Assembly (NCBI GenBank): GCA_011772205.1
Contig: WVZY01000011.1
Coordinates: 62,001-126,000, forward strand
Origin: Candidatus Latescibacterota bacterium
Lineage (GTDB): Bacteria > Krumholzibacteriota > Krumholzibacteriia > WVZY01
DNA: 64,000 nucleotides
Reading direction: 5' to 3'
A model generated the notes under the pieces. The model was not told the DNA's origin and did no database searches. It saw only the letters and a program-made list of their open reading frames with translations. The position numbers and the translations under genes are program-made. Position 1 is the stretch's first letter. Each line of letters begins with the position of its first letter. Positions 23,901 through 37,420 of this stretch are shown piece by piece.

Positions 23901-25513
23901 ACATCGACCAGCCGGCGTTTGTGTCCAAACGCGCTGACAAAATCACAGTGGATGTGCTCCCGGCGGCTACGCTGGCCAATCCTATTCTCAGCATAATTGA
24001 TCCTGGTGGAGCAACGGATAACACTATCAGCACTGATCAGGAATTCAAGGTAAGAGTGGAAGTAACGACAAACGCTCAGACAGAAAATATCGAAGCAAAG
24101 CTCATCCTTCCTGCTGTCTTCCAGCCTATCGGTCCAAGCACAAAATTACTTGGCGACGGGATCGATGGCCCCCCAATGGCGGCTACGTTCAGAGTCCTTG
24201 CTCCGTCTTCAGCATTCAACGACACAATCAAGGTGACATTCACAGGAATCGATGAAAACACCAGCGCTAATCTCGCTGCAACATCGCCCGGTTTATACGT
24301 CGTAGTAATAGAAAAAGCCAGTCTCACTTTAGCTGCGGATATCACTGCGCCGCCTGAAGCTCGAGATAATATTGTGACTATTGGCTCCTCGTTCACCATT
24401 GAGGCTACTGTTACAAACGCTTCTGGCCATGCGGGTATAAACACGTTAATAACAACTCCTCTCCTGAAGATGAGGCTTCAGGGCGGCTACACATTTGTCA
24501 ATCCTGCTGATTCGGTACAGAATTTCGACTTGGGCATCCCGGTCGCATGGGAAGTCAAAGCCCCCTCGGACCCGACCGGGCCGCAGCCGATAATCATCGA
24601 GATAGATTCTATCCCCGTGGACGAAAACAGTGAGTTGCCGGCCGAGGTAGCTGTCGGCCAGGTAACGATTCCAATTCAAACGGAGAGCGCGGTCGTCACG
24701 GTTGATGATGTTACAGAAGCGCTGAATTTCGAGACAAAAGTTGTTCAGGGTGGAGCACAAAACATTGGCCTATTCGGCATCGAGATCAGGAATCCTGGCG
24801 ATAAATCTGCACCGACTGCCGAAGTCGTATCAATTAGATTTACAGTGGAAGATGGAAATAGAAATCCGCTTAGTAGTCCGGATCGAACATTGAGCGGTTT
24901 CTCTGTCGATGTCGGTGGTGGTGCCGGCCAAATCATTGTATCTAATCTATCTGTAAATCCCATCGTTGTGGACTTTTCGGGCGCAGGTAACGCGAGATTC
25001 CTGCCACCAGGCGATAACACCAATATCGCTGTTAGCGTGAGTATCCTGAAGAATCCCGCGGACAGCGAGATCCGCTTGGTCATTCAGAGCGGCAGCCATA
25101 TCGAAGTGAGGGATACCTCATCCGGCGAGCTTCTCAGCGTAGTCGATAAAACCACCAATCAGCCGATCGGCGAGGGCGTCCTCAAGTCCCGACCACTCGT
25201 CATCCTATCGAGCCAGTTCTCCGAATACGCGCACAACTATCCGAATCCGTTCCGTGCGGGGAGCGAGGAGACCCGGATCGCGTATTTCCTCGACAGTCCC
25301 GGAGACGTCACCGTTCGCATTTTCTCATTAACAGGCGACCTCGTCTGGGAGCAGGCGTATCGTCAGCCCGATCCGCACACACAGGCCGGCCCTCAAGAGA
25401 TCCTGTGGGACGGCCGCAATCTCAAGAAAGAAGTGATAAGAAACGGCATCTACATATGCCGGATCCAAGCAGGACCAAACCAGGCGACGTTCAGAATCGC
25501 CGTTGCGAAATAA
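11915..25513 (+). CDS. Giant secreted multi-repeat protein with FlgD/type IX sorting-like C-terminal domain
   Basis: About 4,530 residues. I prefer TTG 11915, preceded by AAGGTGAT with suitable spacing; TTG 11900 is also in frame. Signal peptide R-N-R-I-L-L-F-A-L-S-A-V-F-L-L-L-F. Residues about 170-400 hold two near-identical segments, each with a close cysteine pair (S-T-C-A-V-A-M-C and S-T-C-A-F-G-C). Residues about 510-1,690 hold around a dozen bacterial Ig-like domains of the invasin/Big_1 type (V-K-D-A-F-G-N-W-V, A-R-D-A-Y-G-N-R-V). Residues about 1,800-4,140 are CARDB-like modules with N-N-G-E-A or N-T-G-G-S motifs. The last 95 residues (Y-P-N-P-F-R, I-L-W-D-G-R-N, R-N-G-I-Y-I-C-R-I) are a sorting-like domain. 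No enzyme is visible. It is probably a surface fibre, adhesin or S-layer-like scaffold. Confidence 0.88.
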   Translation: MRNRILLFALSAVFLLLFSSSLHAGTPGSGTATIDPPSDVTAGSQGTWTITYTAEDYFNAGVVLITIPVGWTAPQDGAPNSPGYITVSTDDPACSPTLSIGGQVITINADTLNIGKVLTLVYGDTAGEANPNAKATAQTTAEDSVQFLVESDSEMGNNPALIASSPTIDVVAGPIVKLEFISSPFTFPSTGEAGPLILQTQDQYGNPSAPIADTQINLTSTCAVAMCSRLGGASFSEVDSIIQGAGNDTVSFYYRDTVVGTPTITASAEGQSWTAAQQQQTVDPGPITQLVFISDPNTFECTSEAGPIAIQTQDQNENPSLVSSNQQINLSSTCAFGCFSVLGGENFSPVDSIVMPAGTHTTSFYYRDTRTGTPTITASAQGQPWEDTQQQMAEPGPPHHLTISPSDTTMTAGDFIAYTISVVDSLGNATGLLNDRVVLLESDPSGDFYLPSDHSTPIALLIIAAGEQDTLLDYRNTDANGGIAHILDIRTFDPLSPTLVGIDSVTVAPASVDTAVSTISATTPVVADGSPSTVTVTVKDAFANPIDSVTVTLSATGSASVNDPAGPTNPDGVAVGSGTNLVAETVIVRAVADGDTLSDSATVVFVPGDVDADSSLVAATSPVTADGVDKSIITVTARDANGNPVSGASVTLSVSSEQPEDVLTQPGGVTGPNGQVQGELRSTVTAMPRYVKAVINSVSIVDSAEVVFEAGPAAEFVWTHDGNVVAGVFEDVNLEVLDAQGNRVIAYSDSVFLETTTQWGEVEWAYGTGAKGTIVPLPTDTLYAFDVLDNGIVNLRVKSTLMESIRLRAYRGLAFGESGPLNVHHAAPDSLVIDSGNNQTAEVNTAVGSPLVVKVKDAFGNWVDTTEVTFTVLAGGGLVDVDTTAGGPQDSVAVSAANGEAVCEKWVLGQQSGSDTVRAHMQSGSVTSVNFSATGVAGTGTQIELTPSSKGVTVGSGTEVTAVLKDQFDNVVSGKRVDIFIKDSVADGTLEPNPADPNPTYPLTQTARYGFTDSAGEISVVYRAPLAAALIDSLDAEGDGAPRDSVDDVVYTSTASGATDLKIVWLSSDTAQAGQSFLFKIQAVDGNDNVDTGNSSLVNISGQMGSTLEFSENDFGPTITQVTLINGEKQVYGRGTLVGRWEITASDDASILGDGTEYVVIEDAAVVDHYVVSTVDSVMAGASFNVSVEARDAYGNRVMGAGNNIDLIAVSPADSLPRPDTLLVGTAPLVAGRAIVGENYVRAENILVWVRDASLKEGFSNVLKVKPAGAHQIVYVSGDSTGVVAGSSALLVSRVWDVYENNVPGVSVVFSVLSGGGNVTPGSENSGSDGMVTVTLTTGVAAGENRVRGTIDDGNPPHLETVEYTVQTIASNIHHYTVTPEKTTIAAGEVITVEVKAFDINNNLLEEDSTTGVILGSTTGNAQYGSATDTLVGGIYSTTVWDTVAEPDLILTVDTQGGGPSDSSAVVTVTNAPAYELAAIAGDTSGVEVGFRQRLWVEVLDQYGNVVPGQGVNFTIINDPDGTAELRDALPDTTDGITSTNSAGRAWVDLITSNEAGDNLVRASILDGTPPNLETYTFIVSTQAGEIAYYAVTPDATGGTAGVPIGITVRAFDSNDNPVPDNTTSVEFFVEPPDTGTFAPSSPIVLQAGTLTTAVTVTEVGDFQVRARTEGDTATAGLSPPITIGPNVPWGLITATASPETITANGVSTSIVTSDSITDAYGNVVSEGTFVTVAITDGAIISSDQDPGTPGNQQETDAFGIISFQVQSSTTQGLAAISMNSVAGSASGVTQVYFAQPPTLVCPSPPIPSAVAPGDSVAFRIFVRNTSQTNVTLSTATTFDFTDGAESFSAPLESPIFIGAGLTDTLRFVKQWVHGDMNPGSYSPVINLAGTDQYGAVYSEPCLLPPNSLIISSIRIESITAKPFVSRGTTDTVIVAVKNLGPLPATIETVDLTFSFGSYGVRTALGLPRVIGFNETAQVTVLVPIGSSSPIGMSTIDAFVSGQTGGQTVFDLSLAPYLPLPEWTIQAGATIEYIAGSLQEPIVSSGNVYAFSVELKNSGDATVTLDTLLTKLSFTDGIETYEALLAQTAALAGGATQRVEFDSTMVPLSFIPGDYDVEIHLEGVENGGPFVDSVRTSDKTDYLTVVTPASVSPVLGSLSPDRVSRSTSVFFEIEVQNTGGASVVLNPDSTRFSFAAGAHDVPLDVDLNTVISKSGSTVLRFNPQMVTAPATIYFPSVRLYGTENGLPFDEAFVLQDTLYVQDAPDISIVLLVPSQPRITADRSAGISIRMDVSNSGQATVDFDSAKVRFILGGIDRTDEFIITSPVSFEGGINLPGDSTDSVLFGISDNPSNLMSTGNMTIEGTLWVTDPNGPTEIVADTDLGGKGSLIVESPAVLAIESITPSQDPVSALQTKPFKIRMAVRNVGESAITVALDRDSTYLSFTPSGGGWEWTIEDTLAGGGRTIGGGEVDTVRFDVSKAGGIADLNVIDGVVEAEEKNSGWHIIHDTSDNGSGTILVQSQAAISITSVTPSRPTVTQESGADWTIRIDVTNAGEAELALTLPESLTVTFQDTVGGTVYSKPSTFEGGGVNLTGGASGELVVDVDSTGAFSSRGSKTISVRLAGVELNSGRPVSGIDSGSVTVQAQPDVVYLPNSLDPDTVSSGSVVGFQIGLVNVVPDGATIHLDPSLTKMRFGAGLFEASLDPSSIDPIPGTKGDTLVFVATTIDTLIPPGLTPIELDLHWTENGATGSKLITISGELLIQDAPRLNIVQIRSSQPTVTANQAKTWHITMILENNGETGVDLDLSDGMTDLTLKTLGDVDVSSEYIIPQPTALDGVGGTILPGDATDSLIFDVTQTGTTRGLILISGEATGTDVISSEPVFDDTFDGGAGNVTVQSEAILNIAGITPEQPTATAGQTSGYKIKMAVENLGGSSVDLSLDSVSTKLTFSKPGGWSWTIDSTLVSGGRILAGGATDTVVFNIQRTGDSTDTTLIGGQLKGFEINSDRLVDTTEVDVGSIIIQSPASLAINSVAPSRTTVTEDSPVDWSITVQVENTGGSDVSLILPDGATAAIESDTSGTLIQKPSELQSGGTLLPGGGVGELVFIVDQTGLFSGYGSKAIQVDLIGRELNSNQNVPGTGFGNVTIQAVPTVQYVSGSLEPDSVSKGEEVQFKVTVKNPNSDAAAIHLDPLSTKLQFAAGQFTALLDPLSPASIAGGDSVELVFDPTTIDTAISTGPETVSVELQWLENGRPDSDILTIDNELLIQAPSDLQITQIYTNQPTVTAQQSKSWFISMVVANNGGAGIILDLDEAATHPNFELLGIGDVSDEYTVNYPPTGFLEGDILKGGVADTLVFEVSGTGSSTGTILISGSVEGRDVNTSEIIKDEGGSALVLVQSKAVLNIAGITTPSKVTEGQTAPFEITMAVQNMGESEVRVALHKDSTSITFAEPDGWMWNIEPALVGGGDVIAGGVIDTVIFSVQSTGDSTGMISIDGRVQGFELNSDRFIDTTVVNVDSILVQTKPQLEVTSTVLAAPNPPYVNTNQDFQVATVITNNGEAEAESVYIHIEKSGGSILPETLRVIANLSGGGSTAADTFAVTAAAVADTETFTVVVDSALDANSGQGLFQIITPALDDTAVAFIQNPAVLAIDGVFPSQDRVTRQQTTDWSITIALQNGGDAGLQLTPATADDIGFFIGTQEQIGYAVLAPDTFLSGATDWRIMGGATDTLVYTVASTGSNTGTVRIDANLTAIDLNNPGAGLLQDLDSSTVQVEAPSGLFIDSTYAVAPNTLTNRAFVNTNQPYSINVKIKNTGEAVHRVRVSLRSDGSTLPVPQLSDPLSLATDDSTTYSFSVTAASSAEPFETFTAKIDSATSVNTQLPVNPGPSVDDQEFVTTQVPADLRLSFDITAPLEATDDTLSTNQSFDVTAIVSNNGEAEVEGTGRVRIEYPSSFVLIAGAAIRNYSEDESIIWTLRAPNTASLGQEITCTIIDTLIDRNIDQPAFVSKRADKITVDVLPAATLANPILSIIDPGGATDNTISTDQEFKVRVEVTTNAQTENIEAKLILPAVFQPIGPSTKLLGDGIDGPPMAATFRVLAPSSAFNDTIKVTFTGIDENTSANLAATSPGLYVVVIEKASLTLAADITAPPEARDNIVTIGSSFTIEATVTNASGHAGINTLITTPLLKMRLQGGYTFVNPADSVQNFDLGIPVAWEVKAPSDPTGPQPIIIEIDSIPVDENSELPAEVAVGQVTIPIQTESAVVTVDDVTEALNFETKVVQGGAQNIGLFGIEIRNPGDKSAPTAEVVSIRFTVEDGNRNPLSSPDRTLSGFSVDVGGGAGQIIVSNLSVNPIVVDFSGAGNARFLPPGDNTNIAVSVSILKNPADSEIRLVIQSGSHIEVRDTSSGELLSVVDKTTNQPIGEGVLKSRPLVILSSQFSEYAHNYPNPFRAGSEETRIAYFLDSPGDVTVRIFSLTGDLVWEQAYRQPDPHTQAGPQEILWDGRNLKKEVIRNGIYICRIQAGPNQATFRIAVAK
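18364..22482 (+). repeat. Higher-order ~500-residue repeat inside the giant gene
   Basis: Four distinct modules (a, b, c, d; each about 120-130 residues) recur in the same order. Module a starts near 18364, 19852 and 21358; b near 18708, 20210 and 21718; c near 19090, 20611 and 22105; d near 19480 and 20987. Matched codons in module a (18380, 19874, 21383) are 1,494 and 1,509 bases apart. The third round stops after c. Confidence 0.8.
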
Positions 25514-25557
25514 ATTTTAAAAACGCCGTGCTGAGCACCCTGCAAAAAAGTGAGCGC

Positions 25558-27498
25558 ATGATGATGAGGTGGAACGAACATAGGAATCCAACAAGGCACA
25601 GCCGCTTGTTCCTGGGCGCGGCACTTCTTGCTGCCTTCGTTGCCCTGACGGTTCCGGTCAATCAAGCCGCCAACGCCGAAGAAGGTGACGGCGGCACGCG
25701 GAGTGTCTTTTCCATTGGCGCCGGCTCCCGCGCGATCTCGCTGGGGAGGGCATTCGTGAGCATCGCCGATGACGCGAGCGCCGTTTACTGGAATCCCGCG
25801 GCACTCCGAAACGTCCAGGACAAGCAGATCATGGGAATGTACATGCCCGTCTTTGGTGATTTCACCGGAGCGGACTTCACGTTTTTCGGCGCGGCGTATC
25901 CGACGTTGAGCGCCGGTGTGTTCGGACTTGGTTTCATGCGTGTCGGAACGACCTTCCAGGGTTTTGACGCGGACAGCCGCCCCACGGGTGAAGGCGACTA
26001 CTCGGAGAGCCAGTTCATGATTGCTTACGCCATCGAGCGGCATTCACGGTTCTTTTTGGGCTCCCTCGCCACGGGTGTGTCGTTCAAAATTGCGAACCAG
26101 AAGGTCTCGCCGTATTCGAGCACGGCTCCCGGACTCGATCTCGGCTTTCGGCTGATACCGGATGCCGCCAAGTCGATCTCGATCGGCGTGAACCTCCAGG
26201 ACCTATCCGGGCCGCGGCACAAGCTGGCCCTGGATGCGGATCGCACATACCGCACGATCATGGCTGGCATGGGATACACGAAAGTCTTTTCCAGCGGCTC
26301 CGCCATCAGGCTGAACATCCAAACGGACTTCCCCGAAAAAGCCGACCGCGAGTTCCACGTGGGCGCCGAATACGCCCATTCGAAGTATCTCGCCCTCCGG
26401 ATCGGCATGGACCGGAGCGATTTCACGTTCGGAATCGGTGTGAATGTGGCCGGTTTCGGCTTCGATTATGCAATGCTCTCCAGGGATGAACCGGGGTCCT
26501 CGCACCCCGTTACATTCACAACTCATTTTGGCAAAACGCTTTACGAGCAGCGAGAGATTCTCGCCGATGAGCGCCGTAGAGAACAGGAGGATGCCGTCCG
26601 GCGCGCATTTGCCAGCCGCGTGGAGGAGCACCGCAACAAGGCGAAAGCCCACGAGGCGGAGGGCAATTTCCCGCTTGCACTCGACGAGTGGAAGATCGTT
26701 CTTGAATATATGCCGGGCGATGCAGAGGCGGAGGCGCATGTGAGAGACGCGACGCAGCAGCTGGTCCGCGAGCAGGAAGCGGCGAACCGGGATATCGAGA
26801 AACAAGCGGTCATCAGCACGCATTTCTCGCAGGGCCTCTCCTTCTATCAGCAGAACGATTACGTGCGGGCCCGCGACGAATGGCGGGCGATTCTTGCGAT
26901 CGATTCGACGCACGCGGAGGCCCGTGAGTATCTCCTGAGAACGCGGGAGAAGATCGACGAGCGCATCTCGACCCATTTGCAGCGGGCCAACTCGCTCGAG
27001 AGACAGAACCGGTTGACCGAGGCGTATGGCGAATGGACGTACATCCAGCTTCTCGACGCGGCGAATCGAGAAGCGGAACAGGCAATACGCCGGATCCAGC
27101 GGAAGATAGAAACGCAGTCGCAGGATCTGGAAGTCGTTTCCCGGAGGCTCAGGATCGTCAACCTGTACAGCGACGCACTCAGAAAGTACAACCAGGGCGA
27201 ATACGAGTCCTGCGTGAAAGATCTCGAACAGATCCTCCGTCTGCAGCCTTCGCATGAGGAGGCTAAGACACTCTTGGCAATGGCGAAGCGGAAGATCACT
27301 CCGCTGACAACAGAAGAGGAGCAAAGGATCCAGAAGCTCTACCTCAAGGGCATGCAGTACTTCTCCAAAGATCAGTATGCGGAAGCGATCGCCGAGTGGG
27401 AGAAGATACTCGAGATCGATCCCGGGAACGAAAGCGTCCGCAGAAACATCGAAGAAGCCCGGGAGCGTCTCAGGCAGCTCGAGCGGCAATCGAAATAA
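25558..27498 (+). CDS. PorV/PorQ-like barrel fused to C-terminal TPR domain
   Basis: 646 residues from ATG 25558 (ATGATGATG run; 25561 and 25564 are alternatives). The open frame extends further upstream, but into the end of the giant gene. A signal peptide (L-F-L-G-A-A-L-L-A-A-F-V-A-L) precedes the PorV-type motif G-S-R-A-I-S-L-G-R-A-F-V-S-I-A-D-D-A-S-A followed by W-N-P-A-A-L. The barrel-like part runs to about residue 320. A charged helical linker follows, then several TPR units (for example F-P-L-A-L-D-E-W-K-I-V-L-E and Y-A-E-A-I-A-E-W-E-K-I-L-E-I-D-P-G-N). It follows the giant gene by 44 bases, so it may help export or anchor that protein. Confidence 0.82.
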   Translation: MMMRWNEHRNPTRHSRLFLGAALLAAFVALTVPVNQAANAEEGDGGTRSVFSIGAGSRAISLGRAFVSIADDASAVYWNPAALRNVQDKQIMGMYMPVFGDFTGADFTFFGAAYPTLSAGVFGLGFMRVGTTFQGFDADSRPTGEGDYSESQFMIAYAIERHSRFFLGSLATGVSFKIANQKVSPYSSTAPGLDLGFRLIPDAAKSISIGVNLQDLSGPRHKLALDADRTYRTIMAGMGYTKVFSSGSAIRLNIQTDFPEKADREFHVGAEYAHSKYLALRIGMDRSDFTFGIGVNVAGFGFDYAMLSRDEPGSSHPVTFTTHFGKTLYEQREILADERRREQEDAVRRAFASRVEEHRNKAKAHEAEGNFPLALDEWKIVLEYMPGDAEAEAHVRDATQQLVREQEAANRDIEKQAVISTHFSQGLSFYQQNDYVRARDEWRAILAIDSTHAEAREYLLRTREKIDERISTHLQRANSLERQNRLTEAYGEWTYIQLLDAANREAEQAIRRIQRKIETQSQDLEVVSRRLRIVNLYSDALRKYNQGEYESCVKDLEQILRLQPSHEEAKTLLAMAKRKITPLTTEEEQRIQKLYLKGMQYFSKDQYAEAIAEWEKILEIDPGNESVRRNIEEARERLRQLERQSK

Positions 27499-27628: not shown

Positions 27629-30600
27629 ATGGCCGAGGTAGCTAGGATACCAGAACAGCCCGTAAAGATCCTCGAATTGAGCGTACCCGCAGACGATAGC
27701 CAACTCAGCCGCGTCCGGGACTTCGTGGTCGACGCATGCCAGTCGGCCGGTCTTTCCCTGAGGGAGACCAACAACACAAAACTCGCCGTCGACGAAGCCT
27801 GCACGAACATCATCAAGCACGCCTACGTTAAACAATCGGGAGACATCAAAATCAGGGCGGAGATCTTCCCCGACGAGGTTCAGATCACGCTCCATGATAC
27901 CGGAGAGCACTTCGACTTCGCCAGTATCGAAGATCCGGACCTGGACGAGTACGTCGAATCGGGGAAGAAAGGCGGCCTCGGTGTTTATCTGATCAATCGG
28001 CTAATGGACACGGTCGAGTATCACGCAATCCCCGGCGGTAACGAGCTCGTTCTCACCAAGAAAGGTCAGGCGGCAGCGGCCAAAGCCCTCCCGGGCGTAG
28101 TCTCCTGGAGAAATTCGCTACGGTTCAAATTCACACTCAGGGCGGCTCTGGGACTGTTTATTCTCGTCACTGCGATCTGGGCGTTCATCTTTGTCCGCCA
28201 GACGGGCAGTATCAACGACCAGAGGAACATGCAATGGGTCGAGAAAAAAAGGATCGCGGCAAACCTCGCGAGCAGGAGTAAAGATCTTCTTCTCCAACCG
28301 GAAGCGTTTTCCGTCGAGCAGACGAACCTGGGAGTTTATCTCGCGAAGCTCCTATCCAGCGACAACAGCCTCGCGTACGTTCGAGTCCTCGATCCCACAG
28401 GAAAAATTCTTTCTTCGGGAAACGTCGATGAGATCTTTTCCCAGTATCAGGAACCCGAGAGTGTTTCTCTACTCACCGAAGAAAGCGGAGTCGCATGGAC
28501 GCAAATGCGTGTCGGCGGGCAGGCTGTCCGCAATATCTTTTTTCCGGTCGTTGTGCGGAGTGCCGAATCGGAAAAGACTATCACGCTCGGCGGCGTCCAC
28601 GTGGGTGTTTACGAGAACGCCGTTGAGGGCGCGATCAATGATCCGAGGTTCTCCACCGCATTGCTGATCATCGGCATTCTGCTCGTCGGCGTTTTGCTGA
28701 TCATGGGACTCGTTTCCGTATTCGTGCGACCGATCCAGGTGCTCACAGACGGTGTCCGGGCAATCGGAGAGGGGGCTCTGGACGGCGAGATCGCCGTGCA
28801 CGGCCCTGCTGAGATCGGAGCGATAGCCGCCGTTTTCAACGAGATCACGCAAAAATTCAAGAAGGCGCAGGAAAGCGTCCTCGAGCAGGAAAAACTCCAG
28901 AAGGAAATGGAGGTTGCCAAGCAGATCCAGCACTCGCTGCTGCCGAAGCGATTGCCGGACGTCAGCGGGTACGACATTGCCCCTTACTACCAGGCGGCGG
29001 CGGAAGTCGGCGGGGATTACTACGATTTCGTTCAGGTGGACGACGACACGGTGGGAATCGTTGTGGCCGATGTTTCCGGTAAAGGCGTGCCGGGCTCTCT
29101 GGTCATGACAATGATCCGGACGGCGCTCAGAATGGAGGCAAGGGGCAACAAGAACGCTTCCGATGTGATGGCGAAGATGAACGACTTCGTAACGGATGAT
29201 ATGCGGAAAGGCATGTTCGTCACGATGTTCTACGTGATTCTCGACTCCAAGAACCGGATCGTGAGCTATGCCAGCGCGGGTCACAATCCTATGGTTCTGT
29301 ACCGGCGCGAGGCGAACGAAACGTATTTCCTCAATCCGAAAGGTTTCCCGGTTGGCATCAGTCTCCCCGACGAGTCGCTGTTCAGAAGATCGATCTCGCT
29401 CGAGAAAATTAAGCTCAAAAAGGATGATATGCTCCTCATATATACGGATGGTGTAACGGAAGCGATGGATCCGCAGAGGGAGCAATACGGTGAGGACCGG
29501 ATGCTCCGGCTGATCAAACGGTACGGTCATCTCCACCCGAAGGAGTTCATCTCGAAATTGGAGGCCGACATCAGGACTTTCACCGGCGGCCAACCACAAA
29601 ACGACGATATCACCGTTGTCGCAATAAAAGAAAAGCTCACCGCCGACGAGGTGCTCTCCGGTCTGCGTAAGAAGCTCATCGATCTTGTCGAGGTCGGGGG
29701 GCTGAGCGTCAAAGAAGCCTGCGCGCGCATGAGAGTGTCCCCCGCCACTTACTACCGCTACAAGAAACGGCTGGAGATGCTGGGTGAAAGAGGGCTCAAG
29801 GACAAGATCCTGCGGCAGGACGTGGAACTCAGGCGGGTAAGCCTCGAAGATCGCCAAGAGATCATTGCAATCATCCAGAGACATCCCGAGTACGGTGCGA
29901 AGCGGATTACCGCCGAATTCAACACCGGCAAGGATCCGAACAAGAAGCTGACGGTGAGAATGGTTTACGACGAACTCAAACGCCTTGGCCTCAATACGAA
30001 ACAACTGCGGCTCGATTACCTGAGACGTCATCGTCTCCTTGATGAGGAGGAGCTGCGGGAGAAAGAGAAGGAAATGGTGGAAGAGCTCCTTCGGGAAGTC
30101 ACGGCTGCAGGTACAGAAGCGGAGCTCGCCAGGGAAAAGGCCGTTGCGGGCGCCGATGCGGATCAGGTCGTGGAATTCGAAGCAGTGGGTGATCTGGCGG
30201 TTTCATTCAGAAAAGCGGATGGGGACGTCACGGTGCTCCAAATCGAAGGCCACTTGGATTCCGTCTCGTCCTCCTCTCTGGAAAAGAAGCTCAAAGAAAT
30301 GATCTCCGGTGGCAATTTCAAAATCGCCGTAGATCTTTCCAGAGTCTCTTATGTTTCGAGCGGTGGTTGGGGGATCTTCGCTGGAGAAGTAAGAAGATTG
30401 AGAGAATCAGGAGGAGACGTCGTTCTTGTTGGAATGTCGAGTGAAGTATTCGACGTGTATGATCTCCTCGGCTTTTCCGATCTGCTTCATGCTTTTCCGG
30501 ATATGAACGGAGCCATCCAGTTCTTCAGGTTGCCCCCTGAGGAGCGTATCAAAGCGGCAAAGGAGCTCGCTGCGGACCAAGTAACCGAAACGCCCGTACT

Positions 30601-32035
30601 CGGCCCCGCAGACGGCGAGGTCGTCGAAGTTATTCCCGGGGAGAGCTATGTCCCCGAGTGGGAGAGCTTGGAGATAGAAGCCACGACCGTCGGGGACGCC
30701 GGAGATATCGCTGTTCTATCCTTGAGGGGGATCATCGATACGGTCAGCGCCGAAAATCTCCGAAGAGCCCTGGACCGTGTGATCGCAAGCGGGCGCAACA
30801 AGATCGTTATCGACTTGTCTCTCATCGAGTACGTGTCGAGCGGCGGGTGGGGCGCATTTACCGAGCGATTGCGGGAAGTGCGGCGCGCGGGCGGCGACAT
30901 CAAGCTCTTCGGAATGGACGCGGATGTTTATTATGTGTTCACCATGCTCGGTTTCAACATCGTGCTGTCGTCTTTCGACATCCTTGCCGATGCCATCGAG
31001 GATTTCAAGCGCGAGCCTGGAAGACAAACGGTAGTGCCGGGTTCCCGGCTGCCTGCTGAAGCTCCTCATGGAGGAGAAGACATGGGATCGGCGGAGGAAG
31101 ATGACAGGATTGCGAGATCCGAAATGGACCTCGAGTTCGATCGGCGTGCTCCTGCGGGCTACGATGTTACAGATGCACGGGCTCGGGAGAAGCTCGTTTC
31201 ATGGGAGGCCCCGGTCGAAGGTGTTCTGATCTCGCGTCTCCATGGTTCTATCGAAGCATCCGCGGTGGCGATTCTGGACGGTGAAATCGAGTCACATCTG
31301 GTGGACCAGCCGAACGTCGTCCTGTTCGATCTCGAAGACGTCCATTATGCATCCAGTGCCGGATGGGGACTTTTCGCAAAATGTCTCGACCTGTGCGCCG
31401 CGTGGGGAGGCATTGTGGCACTCTGTTCACTCAATGAGGATCTCTACGAGATTTACCAGTATCTCGAATTACAGCCGCTTATTCCTGCTTACTCATCGAG
31501 GAATGAGGCGCTGCATCAGATAGAAGCCTTGAAGCAAAAGCGCGCCGAAGCCAGCAGACCTGTGGAGCATCCGCCCAGAGATGAGCCGTCCATCGCGTAC
31601 GGGGAACCAGCGGTCGCGGATCGTGAGCAGCCCGTCGAAGGGGAAGTGTCGTCAGTAGACGACGTGCTCGGTCGTGAGCAACAACCGAAGGACGGTGTTT
31701 CGAAGAGCGACCTTCAGGAGACAGCGGGTGAGGTGCCATCCAGTGACGCGGGCAAGGGCGCCTGGCCGGAGATGGCGCCTCGCAAGGATATTCCGCCGGA
31801 GCCGGAGGAGCCCGTGTCGCCTGCTTCGCCCCCTCGGCCTCGCGAAGATGCACCGGATCAGCGGGAGGACGTCGTTTTTGAAGAAGAGCCCCATGCAGTG
31901 GATGTTCAATCATCCGCCACGACCGACAAGCACGTTGCGGAAGACGATAGACTTCGCGATATGGGATGGGAAAAGTACGGTGAGGAGCTAAAACGCAGCC
32001 TGAGACGCAAAAAGAATAAAAAGGAAAATTCGTGA
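27629..32035 (+). CDS. Partner-switching mega-protein: HATPase kinase, membrane HAMP sensor, PP2C phosphatase, HTH and three STAS domains
   Basis: 1,468 residues. Residues 10-146: RsbW/SpoIIAB-type GHKL ATPase (D-E-A-C-T-N-I-I-K-H-A 55-65; G-G-L-G-V-Y-L-I 115-122). Residues 166-190 and 344-366: membrane segments around an extracytoplasmic domain of about 150 residues; HAMP to about 420. Residues 425-669: SpoIIE/RsbU PP2C phosphatase (G-G-D-Y-Y-D-F 461, D-V-S-G-K-G-V-P-G 481, Y-T-D-G-V-T-E-A 605, N-D-D-I-T-V-V 658). Residues 670-800: two helix-turn-helix domains like those at the N-terminus of IS3/IS481 transposases. STAS domains at 856-970, 1015-1128 and 1190-1303 carry V-S-S-G-G-W-G, V-S-S-G-G-W-G and A-S-S-A-G-W-G, keeping the serine pair where RsbV-type antagonists are phosphorylated. 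The last 165 residues are charged and probably disordered. The opposing enzymes and their usual substrate lie in one chain. Confidence 0.93.
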   Translation: MAEVARIPEQPVKILELSVPADDSQLSRVRDFVVDACQSAGLSLRETNNTKLAVDEACTNIIKHAYVKQSGDIKIRAEIFPDEVQITLHDTGEHFDFASIEDPDLDEYVESGKKGGLGVYLINRLMDTVEYHAIPGGNELVLTKKGQAAAAKALPGVVSWRNSLRFKFTLRAALGLFILVTAIWAFIFVRQTGSINDQRNMQWVEKKRIAANLASRSKDLLLQPEAFSVEQTNLGVYLAKLLSSDNSLAYVRVLDPTGKILSSGNVDEIFSQYQEPESVSLLTEESGVAWTQMRVGGQAVRNIFFPVVVRSAESEKTITLGGVHVGVYENAVEGAINDPRFSTALLIIGILLVGVLLIMGLVSVFVRPIQVLTDGVRAIGEGALDGEIAVHGPAEIGAIAAVFNEITQKFKKAQESVLEQEKLQKEMEVAKQIQHSLLPKRLPDVSGYDIAPYYQAAAEVGGDYYDFVQVDDDTVGIVVADVSGKGVPGSLVMTMIRTALRMEARGNKNASDVMAKMNDFVTDDMRKGMFVTMFYVILDSKNRIVSYASAGHNPMVLYRREANETYFLNPKGFPVGISLPDESLFRRSISLEKIKLKKDDMLLIYTDGVTEAMDPQREQYGEDRMLRLIKRYGHLHPKEFISKLEADIRTFTGGQPQNDDITVVAIKEKLTADEVLSGLRKKLIDLVEVGGLSVKEACARMRVSPATYYRYKKRLEMLGERGLKDKILRQDVELRRVSLEDRQEIIAIIQRHPEYGAKRITAEFNTGKDPNKKLTVRMVYDELKRLGLNTKQLRLDYLRRHRLLDEEELREKEKEMVEELLREVTAAGTEAELAREKAVAGADADQVVEFEAVGDLAVSFRKADGDVTVLQIEGHLDSVSSSSLEKKLKEMISGGNFKIAVDLSRVSYVSSGGWGIFAGEVRRLRESGGDVVLVGMSSEVFDVYDLLGFSDLLHAFPDMNGAIQFFRLPPEERIKAAKELAADQVTETPVLGPADGEVVEVIPGESYVPEWESLEIEATTVGDAGDIAVLSLRGIIDTVSAENLRRALDRVIASGRNKIVIDLSLIEYVSSGGWGAFTERLREVRRAGGDIKLFGMDADVYYVFTMLGFNIVLSSFDILADAIEDFKREPGRQTVVPGSRLPAEAPHGGEDMGSAEEDDRIARSEMDLEFDRRAPAGYDVTDARAREKLVSWEAPVEGVLISRLHGSIEASAVAILDGEIESHLVDQPNVVLFDLEDVHYASSAGWGLFAKCLDLCAAWGGIVALCSLNEDLYEIYQYLELQPLIPAYSSRNEALHQIEALKQKRAEASRPVEHPPRDEPSIAYGEPAVADREQPVEGEVSSVDDVLGREQQPKDGVSKSDLQETAGEVPSSDAGKGAWPEMAPRKDIPPEPEEPVSPASPPRPREDAPDQREDVVFEEEPHAVDVQSSATTDKHVAEDDRLRDMGWEKYGEELKRSLRRKKNKKENS

Positions 32036-32769
32036 GAAAGATTGCGATCATTACATCCAAGGGGGGAACGGGGAAAACGACCACGGCAATCAATCTCGGG
32101 CACGGGCTCGCGCTGTGTGGCAAGCGGGTACTGATCATCGATTGCGATGCCCAGCGAAACATTGGCATTGCTTTTGATGTAAAAGCCGAGAAGACGCTTT
32201 GCGACCTCCTGCAGTACGGCGATGTGGATGTGGTCGAAGTCCGGAAGAACCTGTACATGATCGATTCGGGCGGACGGGATCTTGCCGAGCTTGAAATGAT
32301 ACTCGCAGGTCAGTCAAAGAGGGAACGGCGCCTGGAACGGGCGCTAGAAAATCTCAGCGGGTGCGACGTGGTACTGTGTGACTGTTCTCCGACGATTAAC
32401 TTGATCAATATAAATGCGATTACCTATGCGGAGGAAGTGATCATCCCTATTAGCATGGATTATCTTGCCCAGGCTGGAGCGCGCCAGACCATACAGATCA
32501 TCGATGAAGTCAATTCGTACACGAACTCCGGCACGCAGGTGATGGGTATTCTCGGCACGTTTTATGATGGGAGAACCCGGCTATCGAAAGAGGTGCTGGA
32601 GACGCTGCGAAAACATTTTCCGGATACGCTCCTCGATACCGTCATTCGTATCAACACCTCGCTTCGGGAAGCACCGAGCTTCAACCGGACGATATTCGAG
32701 CACTCACCCATGTCACGGGGGGCGTTTGATTATTACCAATTGACAGAGGAGTTTCTGAGACGTGGATAA
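32032..32769 (+). CDS. ParA/Soj-family ATPase
   Basis: 245 residues, GTG start overlapping the upstream TGA by four bases, so translation is coupled to the mega-protein. The deviant Walker A motif K-G-G-T-G-K-T-T-T lies at residues 10-18, followed by I-I-D-C-D-A-Q and V-V-L-C-D-C-S-P-T (the switch and Walker B region). ParA proteins form ATP-dependent dimers that bind DNA non-specifically and position chromosomes, plasmids or protein clusters. The small downstream protein may be its activator. No ParB with a CTP-binding domain and no parS cluster is visible, so positioning of a protein complex is as likely as DNA segregation. Confidence 0.92.
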   Translation: MRKIAIITSKGGTGKTTTAINLGHGLALCGKRVLIIDCDAQRNIGIAFDVKAEKTLCDLLQYGDVDVVEVRKNLYMIDSGGRDLAELEMILAGQSKRERRLERALENLSGCDVVLCDCSPTINLININAITYAEEVIIPISMDYLAQAGARQTIQIIDEVNSYTNSGTQVMGILGTFYDGRTRLSKEVLETLRKHFPDTLLDTVIRINTSLREAPSFNRTIFEHSPMSRGAFDYYQLTEEFLRRG

Positions 32770-33034
32770 GTCTAAGAGATCACTCGGACGGGATGCATTC
32801 GAGGATTCGAACGAAGCAGGCGGTTCGAAATCCCTGAAAAAGCTCATTAGAGGCTCAGGGCCCAAGAACCAGCCGGAGGCGAGAGAGGTCGAGGTGAGAG
32901 TCAAGCTTACCCCTTCTAATATAAAGCACCTGGACAATCTTATCGCAGAACTCAAGAAGCAGGGTAAAGGATCGTTTACGAGAAGCGAACTCATTCGGGT
33001 TGCAATAACCCTTCTGGGATCCTCAGACTTTTGA
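32762..33034 (+). CDS. Small ribbon-helix-helix-like protein, probable ParA partner
   Basis: 90 residues, GTG start overlapping parA by eight bases. The first 40 residues are basic and probably flexible (S-K-R-S-L-G-R, S-K-S-L-K-K-L-I-R); such basic tails often stimulate ParA ATPase activity. Residues about 43-88 (V-R-V-K-L-T-P, I-K-H-L-D-N-L-I-A-E-L, F-T-R-S-E-L-I-R-V-A-I) match a strand-helix-helix layout of the CopG/MetJ type. I infer a DNA-binding ParB-like adaptor; the alternative is a linker between ParA and the TPR or STAS proteins. Confidence 0.75.
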   Translation: MDKSKRSLGRDAFEDSNEAGGSKSLKKLIRGSGPKNQPEAREVEVRVKLTPSNIKHLDNLIAELKKQGKGSFTRSELIRVAITLLGSSDF

Positions 33035-33059
33035 CCCAGCGGGGAAATTGTTGTAAAAT
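33031..33059 (+). promoter_or_regulatory. Predicted sigma-70 promoter for the TPR gene
   Basis: TTGACC (33031-33036), 17-base spacer, TAAAAT (33054-33059). It overlaps the stop codon of the upstream gene. A start site near 33066 would coincide with ATG 33067 of a 19-codon reading frame that ends at 33126, across the start of the TPR gene. Confidence 0.6.
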
Positions 33060-33106
33060 AGAAGCCATGAAGATAGGTACCGAGGCCGACGGCAAATGCC
33101 AGGGTG

Positions 33107-34231
33107 ATGAACGTGCAAAGCTATGAGCTCAGCAGTGAGATTCTGGCGAAGGGACATAAGTATTATGTCCAGACGACTCTTATCTCTTCCCAGAACCGGG
33201 TTGTAACCTCGCTCTTTCACGAAGGCAATCTCCTGTCAAAGCAGGTGGAGAGTTACGATCCTTTGAGCTCTTCCGAAGCGGTGCTGTCCTTGGCGCGCCG
33301 GTGTCATGAAGAACGGAAAAGCCGGATCAGCTCTCTCCTCGAGGTCAGCACGAAGCTCAGCAAAATGGAGGACGCGCGCGCCCATCTGAAGCTTGGAGAG
33401 GCGCTCTATCACCAATATCTCCTCAAAGAGGCAATGGCCGAAGTGGTTCGAGCGATCAAGCTCGGTGTGAAGGACTCGACCGCCTTTTCGATCCTTGGAA
33501 ATTGTCTGCTCGATCTGGGTGATCACGATCGGGCGCTCCGTGCGTTCCAGCACGGGCTCGAGATCAGTCCCAAATACCCCGATCTCCACAACGACCTGGG
33601 TCGTACGTACCTAGGCCTCAAGCGTTGCAGGAATGCGGTAAACGAGTTCGAGAAAGCGATCGATCTCAACAAGTATTACGTCGAAGCGTACATGAACCTG
33701 GCCATGGCTCTGTGTTTGAATGTGATCGAAAAGGATGATTTCGAGCTGTCAAAGGAACTGCCGAGTAGGCTGGTGAAAATCCTCCAAATGGTTGTGCAGC
33801 TCAAGCCCTCTTTGGATGTCGCTGAGTTCAACGAAGCGTTGGCTGCAGCCAAGGACGGGCAGTACGACAAAGTCTGGGAGATACTCTCAAAGATCCAGGA
33901 GGAGAGTTCGAAGTTCATAACGGACAACCTCTCTCTCGACCTCTACCTGATTTTGAAGTTCGACTCGGAGAATCTCACCGAAGAGGACATCGACCGGTAT
34001 ATCGACAAGACTCAGCGGGCGCTGGAAGCGAACCCCAATTTTGCAGACCTGCGGAATGATCTTGGCGTTTTGTACACTGCAAAATGCAAGCTCTTTATCG
34101 ATAAGGCGAATTTATCCTTCAAGGAGGCTCTCAAAATAAATAAAGACTTCAAAAAAGCCGAGAAAAACCTGAAACTATCCGAGAACGACAGGCAGGGAAT
34201 CCACCTTCTTCTGAGGGCACTTCTGGACTAA
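33107..34231 (+). CDS. TPR protein with distinct N-terminal domain
   Basis: 374 residues from ATG 33107. GTG 33104 and GTG 33113 are alternatives; the latter has AGGGTGAT four bases upstream. No signal peptide. Residues 1-50 form a small beta-rich domain (G-H-K-Y-Y-V-Q-T-T-L-I, V-V-T-S-L-F-H-E-G-N-L-L) that I do not recognise. Residues about 80-220 contain TPR units (A-H-L-K-L-G-E-A-L-Y-H-Q-Y-L, A-F-S-I-L-G-N-C-L-L-D-L-G, L-H-N-D-L-G-R-T-Y-L-G-L). One more TPR-like pair lies near the C-terminus. It probably acts as a scaffold between the ParA pair and the STAS proteins. Confidence 0.8.
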   Translation: MNVQSYELSSEILAKGHKYYVQTTLISSQNRVVTSLFHEGNLLSKQVESYDPLSSSEAVLSLARRCHEERKSRISSLLEVSTKLSKMEDARAHLKLGEALYHQYLLKEAMAEVVRAIKLGVKDSTAFSILGNCLLDLGDHDRALRAFQHGLEISPKYPDLHNDLGRTYLGLKRCRNAVNEFEKAIDLNKYYVEAYMNLAMALCLNVIEKDDFELSKELPSRLVKILQMVVQLKPSLDVAEFNEALAAAKDGQYDKVWEILSKIQEESSKFITDNLSLDLYLILKFDSENLTEEDIDRYIDKTQRALEANPNFADLRNDLGVLYTAKCKLFIDKANLSFKEALKINKDFKKAEKNLKLSENDRQGIHLLLRALLD

Positions 34232-34266
34232 CTTTTGCATCTATTCCGGTTAGCTCCAGGACTATT

Positions 34267-34656
34267 ATGGAAAAGCTGATAATTTCAGAAGAAAAGCTTA
34301 ATGGCAAAGTGCCGGTGGCCCTCATCACCCTCAAGGGTTCGATCGAGACCACGAATGCTGCGACGCTCGAGGAAGCCATCGAGCGCGTTATCAACGACAG
34401 GTGCTACCAGATCGTCGTTGATCTCGGCGGGGTGAACTATATCAGCTCAGCAGGTTGGGGGATCTTCATTAGCGAGATCAAACGCGTTCGGCGAAACGGT
34501 GGGGATATCAAACTGGCGAAGATGAACCCCGCAGTGAGGGAAGTCTTTGAGATTCTCGAGTTCCACAACATCCTCAAACCTTACTCTTCAAAGGAAGATG
34601 CGCTTCGTGATTTCATGAGCGGTGTGGAGAAAGGTCCTGAAACGAAGAGGAAATAG
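34267..34656 (+). CDS. Stand-alone STAS protein (RsbV/SpoIIAA-like anti-sigma antagonist)
   Basis: 129 residues, one STAS domain. The loop N-Y-I-S-S-A-G-W-G keeps two serines (60 and 61) at the position phosphorylated in SpoIIAA/RsbV, and I-V-V-D-L-G-G-V is the typical preceding strand. In partner switching the unphosphorylated form binds an RsbW-type kinase. The loop and the following helix (I-F-I-S-E-I-K-R-V-R-R-N-G-G-D-I-K-L) closely resemble STAS domains 1 and 2 of the mega-protein, so that protein is its likely kinase and phosphatase. AGGA lies five bases before the ATG. Confidence 0.9.
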   Translation: MEKLIISEEKLNGKVPVALITLKGSIETTNAATLEEAIERVINDRCYQIVVDLGGVNYISSAGWGIFISEIKRVRRNGGDIKLAKMNPAVREVFEILEFHNILKPYSSKEDALRDFMSGVEKGPETKRK

Positions 34657-34693
34657 GTTACCAAGGACTTCCGAACGGTGAAAGAGGGATCGG

Positions 34694-35071
34694 ATGACAG
34701 TCGACGGCATCGTAGTTAGCGTCATATCCGGTAAGGATCACGGAGAAGTCTCGATTCTGCAGGTCAGCGGCTATCTGGATACCACAACCGCCGGCGAGCT
34801 GGAGAATGCGCTGTACAACTTGCTGAAAAGAGACCAGTATAAGATCGTCGTCGACCTGTCCGGCGTTACCTATATTAGTTCGGCGGGTTGGGGGATATTT
34901 ATCGGCGAAATCAAGGAGATCCGGAGCAACGGTGGGGACCTGAAACTCGCAGGAATGATAGGGGACGTCCATGAAGTGTTCCAGCTTCTCGAGTTCCACT
35001 CGATCCTCGAAAGCTATCCGGACACCAAGTCGGCTGTAACAGCATTCAAGCAGGTCTCTATGCCGGATTAA
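34694..35071 (+). CDS. Second stand-alone STAS protein
   Basis: 125 residues, paralogue of the gene 37 bases upstream. Serines 62 and 63 sit in T-Y-I-S-S-A-G-W-G-I-F-I-G-E-I-K. The C-terminal helices (H-E-V-F-Q-L-L-E-F-H-S-I-L) match the neighbour (R-E-V-F-E-I-L-E-F-H-N-I-L). GAGGGA lies before the ATG. The two copies may be alternative outputs of the same kinase and phosphatase. Confidence 0.9.
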   Translation: MTVDGIVVSVISGKDHGEVSILQVSGYLDTTTAGELENALYNLLKRDQYKIVVDLSGVTYISSAGWGIFIGEIKEIRSNGGDLKLAGMIGDVHEVFQLLEFHSILESYPDTKSAVTAFKQVSMPD

Positions 35072-35188: not shown

Positions 35189-37420
35189 ATGTTCTCGCTT
35201 TGGAAGGAGCCTAGATATATACCGCCCATGCACGCGACCGTACTCGCATCCATTGGTTTTGCTTTTCAATACTGGGTGCTCATCGTTGCGCTGGTTCTGC
35301 TTCTCATCGCTCAGCTCGCCTATTACCGGACGACCCCATCGTTGTCGGGCTGGCTGAGGGCAGTTCTAACCTCACTGCGGAGTGCAGCGTTTCTGGTACT
35401 CATCGTTCTGTTGATGGATCCCAGATGCATCCGTCGAGGCGAGAAAACAGAGCCGGGCTGGGTCATTGCGCTCATCGATCGATCGGCGAGCATGTCGCTG
35501 CCCGCGGACGGCTGGGAACCCGGCATAGGACCGACGAGGTTCAAGGCTGCTCTGGACCTATCAGCGCATATGAAACGGAGCGTCGAGGAGCGGGGCGGCC
35601 TCTACCAGGAGGTCTTCTTCGCCGGCGACCTGGTACCGTCGCGCGGCGACTCCCTTTCCCCGGATGGGCAAGGGACAAGCATCGTCCGGTCGCTGCAGCA
35701 AGCCTATGAAAAGTATGAAGGTGAAAACGTCTCTGCGCTCGTCCTGATTACGGACGGTGTGGAAACGGACAAACGGCTTCTGCGTCGTTCCCTCCCTCCA
35801 GTACCTGTTTTTGCTTTGGGTGTTGGCGACACGGCATCCCCGGATGACGTCCGCATCAGGGAAGTCTCGTACCCTACTGTGGTGCGGACACCGTCCCGTT
35901 CATCCATCGACGCCATGCTCTTTTACTCGGGTGATGGAATGAAACGGATCCAGCTGCGGCTCCTGGAGGGTGGAACGGTAGTTTTCAAAAAGGACTCGGT
36001 AGTGAGTTCAGTCAATCGAGAAATCACCGAAAAGATACCGCTGGAATTTCCCGAGCAGGGGAGGCGCCATTTCGTTCTGGAAGTTGGAGTGGATGGGTAT
36101 GACGCGGAGCTGGAAAACAACCGCCGGGACATCGTCATAGAAGCGGAGAAAGCCGAAGTGAAGGTACTCATTGTAGACCTGCGGCCGGACTGGGAGCTGC
36201 ATTTTCTCACAGACCTCCTCCGCAAGGACGAGAGTCTCGATTTCGTTGTGATTGCTTTCGAAGGGCGGGCTTCCCCTCCCTCGGGGAAGATCCTGCCGCC
36301 GGATCGTTTTCTCTCCCATTTGAACGAGAGCGACGCGCTGGTCATCGGGTCCGTTTCGGACAGATTCCTCAGCGAATCTACTGCCGCCGCGATCGAGCGG
36401 TTTGTGAGGGAAAGAGGCGGCGGGCTGCTCGTACTGCCGGGGCCGTCGTCGCTCTTTTCGACACCCCTGGCTTGGAGGCGTCTGGAACGTGTGCTCCCGG
36501 TGAGGGGCACACTCCCGTTCCATTTTGATCTTCGTTACACCAGCTTGGCACTCGGCCCGCAGGCCGGAACCAACCCGATTACCGCCCAGCTGCTCCCGCT
36601 TCTGGGGCAGAAAGACTGGCAGGAACGCAGCCCGCTCCTCGGTTCGTTCATACCGTTGTTGCCGAAGACGGGTGCGGAAGTGCTGTTGGAAACGATGGAA
36701 CGCAGGACGCCCGCCGTTTCATACCAAACGCTCGGGAAAGGCCGCGTGGCCGTCGTCAGTGCAGGGCCGCTGTGGCGATGGAAATTTCTGTCGGACGGTA
36801 ATACGGTATACGACGAGGTGATGTCCCGGCTGCTCGACGTGCTGGCCAGGGGCGAGGAAACCGAGCGGTTCTTTCTGACGGCTAAGAAAAACGTGTTCGA
36901 TGCCGGGGAGAGTCCCGTGTTTGTGGCCGAAGTGTTCAATGAAAAAATGCAGCCGGTCACCGGGGTTCCGATAAAGCTCGAAGTGTCGCGGTTCGGTGAA
37001 AACGGCCAGGAAGTGCCTCTCGAGCGTTTTTCGATGGGACGCGAAAGCGTGCAGAGCACGCGCTTCCGTGCGGAGATATCCACGCTTCCTCCGGGCCGGT
37101 ATCTTGTCCGCGGAGAGGCGGAGCTTCCCGAGCGAACGATCACGAGTCGTCCGGTCGAGGTGAGGATATCGGATGTTTCCGTCGAGTTCCGCGACGTTCG
37201 GCAGGACCGGGCGGCACTGTCTGCGCTGTCGAGGAGGTCGGGGGGAGCGCACGGAAAAGCCGAAGATTTCGAAGCGCTCACGGAAGAAATTCCGCTGCGA
37301 TCACGAAAGGTGGCGTCGATTTCCGAACTGTCTGCTAGAACGACGATCCTGGCATTTACGATCATCGTGCTGTTGTTGAGTGTGGAGTGGATCATCAGAA
37401 AGCGGGTGGGAATGATTTAA
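35189..37420 (+). CDS. VWA and glutamine-amidotransferase-like domain membrane protein
   Basis: 743 residues. Two N-terminal membrane segments (about 14-36 and 50-71) precede a von Willebrand A domain with the metal-binding motif D-R-S-A-S-M and the later L-I-T-D-G-V-E-T. Residues about 325-430 (V-K-V-L-I-V-D-L-R-P-D-W-E, F-V-R-E-R-G-G-G-L-L-V-L-P-G-P) form the class I amidotransferase-like fold common in such proteins, without an obvious catalytic triad. One membrane segment closes the protein (about 716-735). BatA-like architecture; function unknown. There is no clear ribosome site at ATG 35189, and ATG 35228 is possible. Confidence 0.85.
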   Translation: MFSLWKEPRYIPPMHATVLASIGFAFQYWVLIVALVLLLIAQLAYYRTTPSLSGWLRAVLTSLRSAAFLVLIVLLMDPRCIRRGEKTEPGWVIALIDRSASMSLPADGWEPGIGPTRFKAALDLSAHMKRSVEERGGLYQEVFFAGDLVPSRGDSLSPDGQGTSIVRSLQQAYEKYEGENVSALVLITDGVETDKRLLRRSLPPVPVFALGVGDTASPDDVRIREVSYPTVVRTPSRSSIDAMLFYSGDGMKRIQLRLLEGGTVVFKKDSVVSSVNREITEKIPLEFPEQGRRHFVLEVGVDGYDAELENNRRDIVIEAEKAEVKVLIVDLRPDWELHFLTDLLRKDESLDFVVIAFEGRASPPSGKILPPDRFLSHLNESDALVIGSVSDRFLSESTAAAIERFVRERGGGLLVLPGPSSLFSTPLAWRRLERVLPVRGTLPFHFDLRYTSLALGPQAGTNPITAQLLPLLGQKDWQERSPLLGSFIPLLPKTGAEVLLETMERRTPAVSYQTLGKGRVAVVSAGPLWRWKFLSDGNTVYDEVMSRLLDVLARGEETERFFLTAKKNVFDAGESPVFVAEVFNEKMQPVTGVPIKLEVSRFGENGQEVPLERFSMGRESVQSTRFRAEISTLPPGRYLVRGEAELPERTITSRPVEVRISDVSVEFRDVRQDRAALSALSRRSGGAHGKAEDFEALTEEIPLRSRKVASISELSARTTILAFTIIVLLLSVEWIIRKRVGMI

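Follow-up and report, generated by a model that had tools for sequence, protein, structure and literature searches.

Organization of the gene cluster

The 64,000-nucleotide stretch analysed here (hereafter the window; contig WVZY01000011.1, positions 62,001–126,000) contains a cluster of six genes. The first product, a polypeptide of 1468 residues (hereafter the composite), joins the domain types of a serine/threonine partner-switching circuit to a membrane sensor, and the second is an orphan ParA ATPase. The ParA gene overlaps that of the composite by 4 nt and is in turn overlapped by 8 nt by a small ribbon-helix-helix (RHH)-like gene; a tetratricopeptide repeat (TPR) gene and two genes for free STAS proteins follow, all six lying where a preceding sequence-only reading had placed them. 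From its N- to its C-terminus the composite consists of a kinase, a transmembrane segment, a single-Cache domain, a second transmembrane segment, HAMP, a linker, a SpoIIE/PP2C phosphatase, a bipartite helix-turn-helix (HTH) region, three STAS domains (STAS1-3), an acidic linker and a basic C-terminal peptide (Table 1). Since this order places one transmembrane sensor between kinase and phosphatase, the two lie on either side of it, both facing the cytoplasm. Pfam matches bear out the kinase, HAMP membrane sensor, phosphatase and three STAS domains that the sequence-only reading had recognized, with intact active sites; the three STAS stretches (residue 864 onward) gave 2e-44 in all. The Cache sensor is the least conserved folded part of the protein (18–48% identity among orthologues).

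Table 1. Features of the cluster and its conserved neighbours, with window coordinates and the basis of each assignment
Feature	Position	Strand	Basis
Composite partner-switching protein, 1468 aa	27629..32035	+	Open reading frame list, domain scans, orthologues
RsbW-type GHKL serine kinase domain, aa 19-144, cytoplasmic	27683..28060	+	HATPase_c_2 (Pfam) 9e-30
Transmembrane segment 1, aa 166-192	28124..28204	+	Hydropathy
Periplasmic single-Cache sensor, aa 206-338	28244..28642	+	sCache_3_2 (Pfam) 2.8e-6, slightly under curated cut-off
Transmembrane segment 2 (aa 338-374) and HAMP (aa 364-406)	28640..28846	+	Hydropathy; HAMP (Pfam) 1.2e-7
SpoIIE/RsbU-type PP2C phosphatase, aa 471-667, GGDYYD at 461	29039..29629	+	SpoIIE (Pfam) 1.7e-49
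Bipartite HTH, transposase/paired-domain type, aa 668-815	29630..30073	+	NCBIfam IS481 transposase 2.9e-15
STAS 1, aa 864-959, acceptor Ser S911	30218..30505	+	Pfam, orthologue alignment, SpoIIAA alignment
STAS 2, aa 1020-1130, acceptor Ser S1071	30686..31018	+	Pfam, orthologue alignment, SpoIIAA alignment
STAS 3, aa 1190-1300, acceptor Ser S1243	31196..31528	+	Pfam, orthologue alignment; most divergent of the three
Conserved C-terminal peptide with GWxxYG motif and basic end, preceded by a long acidic linker; putative ParA-binding peptide	31925..32032	+	Alignment
Orphan ParA ATPase, 245 aa, Soj-like, Walker A KGGTGKTT	32032..32769	+	AAA_31/ParA (Pfam) 1e-37
RHH-like protein, N-terminal KRSLGRD motif	32762..33034	+	RHH_1 E=0.011 over 11 residues, sub-threshold; AlphaFold2; alignment
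TPR protein, distinct N-terminal domain, conserved C-terminus	33104..34231	+	Pfam, orthologue comparison
Free STAS protein a, acceptor in YISSAGWG	34267..34656	+	STAS (Pfam) 1.5e-19 / 1.7e-19 for the two free STAS
Free STAS protein b, acceptor in YISSAGWG	34694..35071	+	STAS (Pfam); SpoIIAA alignment
PorV/PorQ-family outer-membrane protein, C-terminal TPRs, conserved neighbour	25405..27498	+	NF033709 1.3e-23, slightly under curated cut-off; synteny
VWA-like membrane protein, conserved neighbour	35189..37420	+	Synteny; VWA_2 E=0.01 in orthologue L068

The kinase, phosphatase and STAS active sites are intact

When 18 orthologues were aligned to the window protein, the kinase N-box (E56/N60) and G-boxes (D90xG92, GGLG115-118) proved invariant; the domain aligns with RsbW (PDB 6m36, 4.5e-17). 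The metal-binding PP2C motifs GGDYYD, DVSGKG, TDGVTE and DD659-660 are invariant in the intact orthologues, and the best PDB match of this domain is Rv1364c (3ke6, 4.8e-13). Such invariance across orthologues argues that the composite is not a chance product. The acceptor serine of each STAS domain is likewise invariant in all orthologues that retain that domain in intact form. When the STAS loop YISSAGWG is set against that of SpoIIAA (FMDSSGLG), the second serine of its S-S pair matches Ser58, as do S911, S1071, S1243 and the corresponding residues of the free STAS loops. The sequence-only reading had described a conserved serine pair followed by W-G; this holds for all five loops of the locus, but the first serine stands in place of SpoIIAA Asp57, while the position of the second serine of the SpoIIAA D-S-S-G is occupied by G, A, S or T. 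The same W-G is seen in STAS genes beside the VWA gene in families f3 and f7, which lack the composite, and is missing from two other STAS genes checked in the same genome (ISSAGIG and ISSAGLG); it is therefore a signature of this STAS lineage. To judge from these residues, the kinase/phosphatase/STAS set in one chain is complete and apparently active, and the conservation supports a working kinase/phosphatase pair that would act on the STAS serines.

The ParA gene and a C-terminal peptide accompany the full-length composite

Orthologues were sought in 80 genomes of Krumholzibacteriota, all metagenome-assembled genomes (MAGs); several profile searches covered 38 genomes. The HTH-bearing composite was present in 30 of the 80 (families f1, f2, f4 and f8, plus one f7 genome), and a shorter form in one Eisenbacteria MAG (bin56, locus L123). 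The relatives belong, that MAG apart, to Candidatus Krumholzibacteriota/Krumholzibacteriia, some being filed as Latescibacterota or UBP1. The part from kinase to HTH (the first 800 residues) is ∼50–70% identical among orthologues. In every contig that extends beyond the end of a full-length composite (24/24), ParA is the next gene, the distance from the composite's stop ranging from –4 to +15 nt in the 14 genomes measured. Three composites stop after the HTH and lack STAS1-3: those of genomes G003 (with the HTH on an open reading frame of its own) and G023, and that of L123. Neither ParA nor the TPR gene lies near any of them. The sequence-only reading had proposed to test whether ParA and RHH genes co-occur with the composite, and had taken an absence of conserved linkage in relatives as evidence against its circuit. 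For ParA the linkage is conserved throughout the full-length forms; for RHH it is confined to families f1 and f2.

The locus ParA matches Thermus thermophilus Soj (PDB 1wcv) at 1.2e-43, and its deviant Walker A motif KGGTGKTT is invariant in the orthologues. It is distinct from the canonical Soj of the same genome, which is paired with ParB elsewhere (contig C12). The PRN motif of canonical Soj proteins (VIPRNVRL in 1wcv, IIPRNVKL in the genome's own) is RIN or RVN in the locus ParA, which leaves nucleoid binding plausible though uncertain.

The last ∼36 residues of the composite, a part that the sequence-only reading had missed, contain the pattern D-x-x-[IL]-[KR]-x-x-G-W-x-x-Y-G-x-x-L and after it a basic stretch. 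D, G, W, Y, G and L are invariant in 15 aligned sequences, the preceding linker being barely conserved. Of 38 genomes, 17 had a match to a profile of this peptide, each of them a single one that fell in the composite, and these 17 are exactly those with a full-length composite and ParA. In G003 and G023 the profile search showed the peptide to be gone together with ParA, and it is also missing from L123. STAS tail, peptide and ParA co-occur exactly. Known partners of ParA/MinD ATPases work by way of a short, disordered, basic peptide at one terminus (PMC7993993; PMC10241942), which makes the peptide of the composite a natural candidate for the ParA contact. This tight co-variation leans towards an action of ParA on the composite, by placing or clustering it, which it fits at least as well as it fits ParA as the final output.

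The HTH region and the RHH-like protein

The HTH that the sequence-only reading had noted could be refined to a bipartite domain resembling that of IS481 transposases. It was found in every composite examined, short forms included, with 51–65% identity to the orthologues (40% in G023). Its AlphaFold2 model (mean pLDDT 86) has nine helices in two groups. The top Foldseek ranks were the DNA-binding domains of paired-domain proteins (Pax5, Pax6) and transposases (TnsB, Tc3, Hsmar1), none of them at E<=0.001. The possibility that the composite is a domesticated transposase was rejected, only the DNA-binding part being recognized. In Eisenbacteria bin56, the free STAS protein (L123:10474-11622, a reading frame of 382 codons) ends in a segment that, by eye, resembles the second HTH subdomain of the composite; it looks as if the STAS protein and the sensor had a docking or DNA-binding module in common.

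The small RHH-like gene is present and overlaps ParA as the sequence-only reading had it, although its family match is sub-threshold; the assignment relies on conservation, on the topology of the helices and on a ParB-like motif at the N-terminus. Helices 51-66 and 74-89 follow an unformed strand in the AlphaFold2 model, and a fold search with this model returned no significant match, the RHH domain of ParD ranking second. The N-terminus (KRSLGRD) is close to the start of the genome's own ParB, VPKRALGKGLEAL (KRALGKGLEAL), and by its sequence resembles the ParA-activating N-terminus of ParB. The gene occurs only in families f1 and f2 (the window's order), in five genomes, and is absent from 19 full-length f4/f8 loci. 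It was therefore rejected as a conserved component of the system, and cannot be a general output. No repeat array of the kind expected of a centromere was found near ParA and the RHH-like gene.

Synteny and order of assembly

Where contigs continue past ParA, they carry the TPR gene, two free STAS genes, the gene for the VWA-like membrane protein and, in most cases, one for an LTD protein; upstream of the composite in relatives lies the PorV/PorQ-family TPR protein. Simpler arrangements were found in other families: VWA-LTD only (f5 and f6), STAS-VWA-LTD (f3 and f7), and PorV/TPR-core-STAS-VWA-LTD (G023 and L123). Families f1, f2, f4 and f8 additionally have STAS1-3, the C-terminal peptide, ParA, TPR and a second free STAS gene, to which f1 and f2 add RHH. 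The oldest partner of the free STAS protein is the VWA membrane protein, not ParA. An unrooted tree of the core pairs G023 with L123, in a position between f1/f2 and f4/f8, and places G003 inside f1/f2. The pattern agrees with a single gain followed by one loss of these parts together, other rootings needing different counts. The G003 composite (L056) is broken in the HTH by in-frame stops, in addition to its loss of STAS1-3, ParA and TPR, and this locus is possibly a decaying circuit. A composite split into two distant loci in G004 was dismissed as an assembly artefact, both breakpoints falling in runs of N.

Relatives of the VWA-like protein were present in 36 of 38 genomes; the window copy itself matches no family in Pfam or NCBIfam. 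Upstream of the PorV/PorQ-family gene (window 11900-25513) lies the gene for a 4,537-residue, repeat-rich secreted protein ending in a C-terminal type IX secretion system (T9SS) type A sorting domain (TIGR04183), that is, a T9SS client. SprA, the T9SS translocon, turned up in each of the 38 genomes searched. A degenerate 39-bp tandem duplication (27484-27561, 74% identity), possibly an operator or the remnant of a coding repeat, occupies mostly the interval that separates the composite from the PorV/PorQ-family gene. A promoter and terminator scan set no operon boundary: promoter-like sites occurred at chance level, and terminator-like sites at ∼2 times the shuffled mean on both strands. The N-terminus of the TPR protein (33104-33390) matched NCBIfam RomY_Nterm, in the same register, in four of eight orthologues scanned (E 0.0018-0.08; L054, L057 and L066 among them). 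RomY is part of the MglA polarity GTPase-activating complex of Myxococcus. With 13–21 bits against a cut-off of 50, and two of 14 control genomes also matching, RomY homology was not accepted and is a lead only. A defence role was rejected as well: PADLOC left the composite unmatched and gave for ParA only a weak, generic ParA-type match.

Proposed mechanism and competing explanations

We tentatively favour, at nearly an even chance, the idea that the composite is a bifunctional partner-switching sensor, anchored in the membrane, which doubles as the cargo of its own ParA. The scheme, in which catalysis, direction of signalling, peptide–ParA contact, positioning and output are all inferred, would run as follows. 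The periplasmic Cache domain, which sits between two transmembrane helices and precedes HAMP, would set the balance between kinase and PP2C. The kinase would phosphorylate, and the PP2C domain dephosphorylate, the same serine in each fused STAS domain, whether in cis or from one protomer to another, and the pair would act likewise, in trans, on the two free STAS proteins. The latter, the likely signal carriers, would pass the signal on without a sigma factor, most probably to the co-encoded surface and type IX secretion functions (the VWA protein, the PorV/PorQ-family protein and the giant T9SS client) and/or via the HTH. The STAS-VWA-LTD synteny, the linkage of the PorV/PorQ-family gene to that of the T9SS client and the presence of SprA throughout the genomes searched speak for such a link. 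The basic C-terminal peptide would bind and stimulate the adjacent orphan ParA, which would cluster or position the sensor complex; in f1 and f2, the RHH protein with its ParB-like N-terminus might add a second, DNA-bound ParA partner. It is possible, if short of probable, that the enzyme is in this way tethered to ParA by an activating peptide of its own, STAS signalling taking place at, or being coupled to, a ParA-defined site without a sigma factor. As the sequence-only reading had noted, none of the neighbouring window genes scanned encodes a sigma factor; since other outputs of partner switching are known, this does not exclude the mechanism.

Several observations weigh against this scheme. 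Its weakest step is the candidate ParA contact, which by analogy would be made by a peptide at the C-terminus, the peptides described being N-terminal; nor does the peptide match the ParB motif LG[KR]GL. The association with ParA (24:0 versus 0:3) represents few independent evolutionary events. In f1 and f2 the RHH protein could be the real partner of ParA, since it has the more ParB-like peptide. Finally, the HTH is conserved even in the forms without ParA (G003, G023 and Eisenbacteria bin56), which positioning does not explain. This last point would suit a membrane-tethered transcription regulator, in which STAS phosphorylation changes the availability or dimerization of the HTH and so controls the surface-protein operon, ParA being a later accessory. 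The retention of the HTH in forms without STAS tail or ParA, its profile and fold resemblance to transposase and paired DNA-binding domains, and the second-HTH-like end of the Eisenbacteria free STAS protein all agree with such a role, and in CapK/CapS STAS phosphorylation directly controls an HTH repressor without a sigma factor (PMC13373217). However, deletion of the HTH of CapK had no effect (PMC13373217), the DNA-binding domain of a membrane sensor would need to reach its promoter, and no operator was identified beyond the single degenerate 39-bp repeat; we regard this explanation as doubtful.

ParA might instead be the output, as the sequence-only reading inferred, with HTH-bound DNA as its other choice; here dephosphorylated STAS domains (free or fused) would bind ParA or the TPR protein and switch the positioning of a cargo such as secretion or adhesin machinery. 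ParA, TPR and STAS1-3 are indeed gained and lost together, genes for a T9SS client and a PorV/PorQ-family protein adjoin, and the TPR N-terminus is weakly similar to the polarity regulator RomY. Those RomY matches are far under the curated cut-off, though, a STAS–ParA contact is neither known nor predicted in this locus, and families without ParA still have a free STAS gene there, so that we consider this output unlikely. Very unlikely, in our judgement, is a cryptic regulation of a sigma factor: an anti-sigma factor encoded at another locus would, as in RsbU/V/W, be the target of the STAS proteins, with ParA merely localizing the sensor. It would accord with the classical role of all three domain types and with a separate HATPase/STAS gene pair on contig C6, but the scanned window genes include no sigma factor and the loop of the free STAS proteins is unlike those of the other STAS proteins of the genome, a difference that argues for a dedicated partner.

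Comparison with known systems

Kinase, phosphatase and STAS domains were taken by the sequence-only reading to be normally separate proteins. Their union in one chain is already known from Rv1364c of Mycobacterium tuberculosis, described as an entire sigma-F toolbox on a single polypeptide (PMC9138534), which like the composite holds a PP2C phosphatase, an RsbW-type kinase and STAS. Rv1364c differs in its soluble PAS sensor, its single STAS domain, its order (PAS-PP2C-kinase-STAS) and its target, sigma F; the composite has an HTH, a membrane sensor and a link to ParA, in the order kinase-TM-Cache-TM-HAMP-PP2C-HTH-STAS3 (TM, transmembrane segment). SypE of Vibrio fischeri also joins kinase and phosphatase, acting on a separate STAS protein, SypA; its output is biofilm formation and no ParA is involved. 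The SypE chain is not known to contain STAS, HTH or a transmembrane sensor. The target of SypA is not a known sigma factor (PMC8256260). In BtrU/BtrV/BtrW of Bordetella partner switching is likewise tied to a secretion system (PMC8256260), although here the proteins are three separate ones and the secretion is of type III. CapK/CapS shares with the composite the combination of kinase, STAS and HTH, and its STAS phosphorylation yields a DNA-binding output without a sigma factor (EMBO J 2026; PMC13373217). It lacks a phosphatase, a membrane sensor and ParA, and its domain order is different: an HTH-STAS-kinase protein and a STAS-wHTH (winged HTH) protein form a pair upstream of an immune operon.

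On the ParA side, PomX/PomZ, McdA/McdB, PpfA/TlpT and ParC resemble the locus in having an orphan ParA beside a partner that is, or holds, the cargo and bears a short basic terminal peptide, a role for which the composite is a candidate; unlike those ParA/MinD cargo-positioning partners, the composite carries its peptide at the C-terminus and is a membrane signalling enzyme. In type Ib partition loci (ParF-ParG type), too, the gene for a small ParA that has no N-terminal HTH precedes one for a small RHH-like protein, whereas here the operon is chromosomal, the RHH gene is absent from most relatives, there is no centromere-like repeat array, and ParA is Soj-like.

What is new is to find a membrane sensor, an HTH, a STAS triplet and conserved wiring to ParA combined. 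Because the papers searched describe neither a transmembrane kinase/phosphatase form with HTH and three STAS domains nor a conserved ParA link, the coupling is possibly novel; if real, it would be the first case known to us of partner switching wired directly to a positioning motor of Walker type. If the proposed mechanism is correct, one operon would unite Ser/Thr partner switching with ParA positioning, each a large bacterial toolkit, a short defined peptide would be available to probe the link between them, and a sigma-free partner-switching output would be tied to surface and type IX secretion genes. The simpler relatives (STAS-VWA only, the core without ParA, the full set, and the full set with RHH) form a natural series showing the probable order of addition. 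In two f7 loci without the composite (L177:13900-14424 and L178:13964-14479), a small protein that appears by eye to be DUF4388/PATAN-like is encoded directly upstream of STAS-VWA-LTD.

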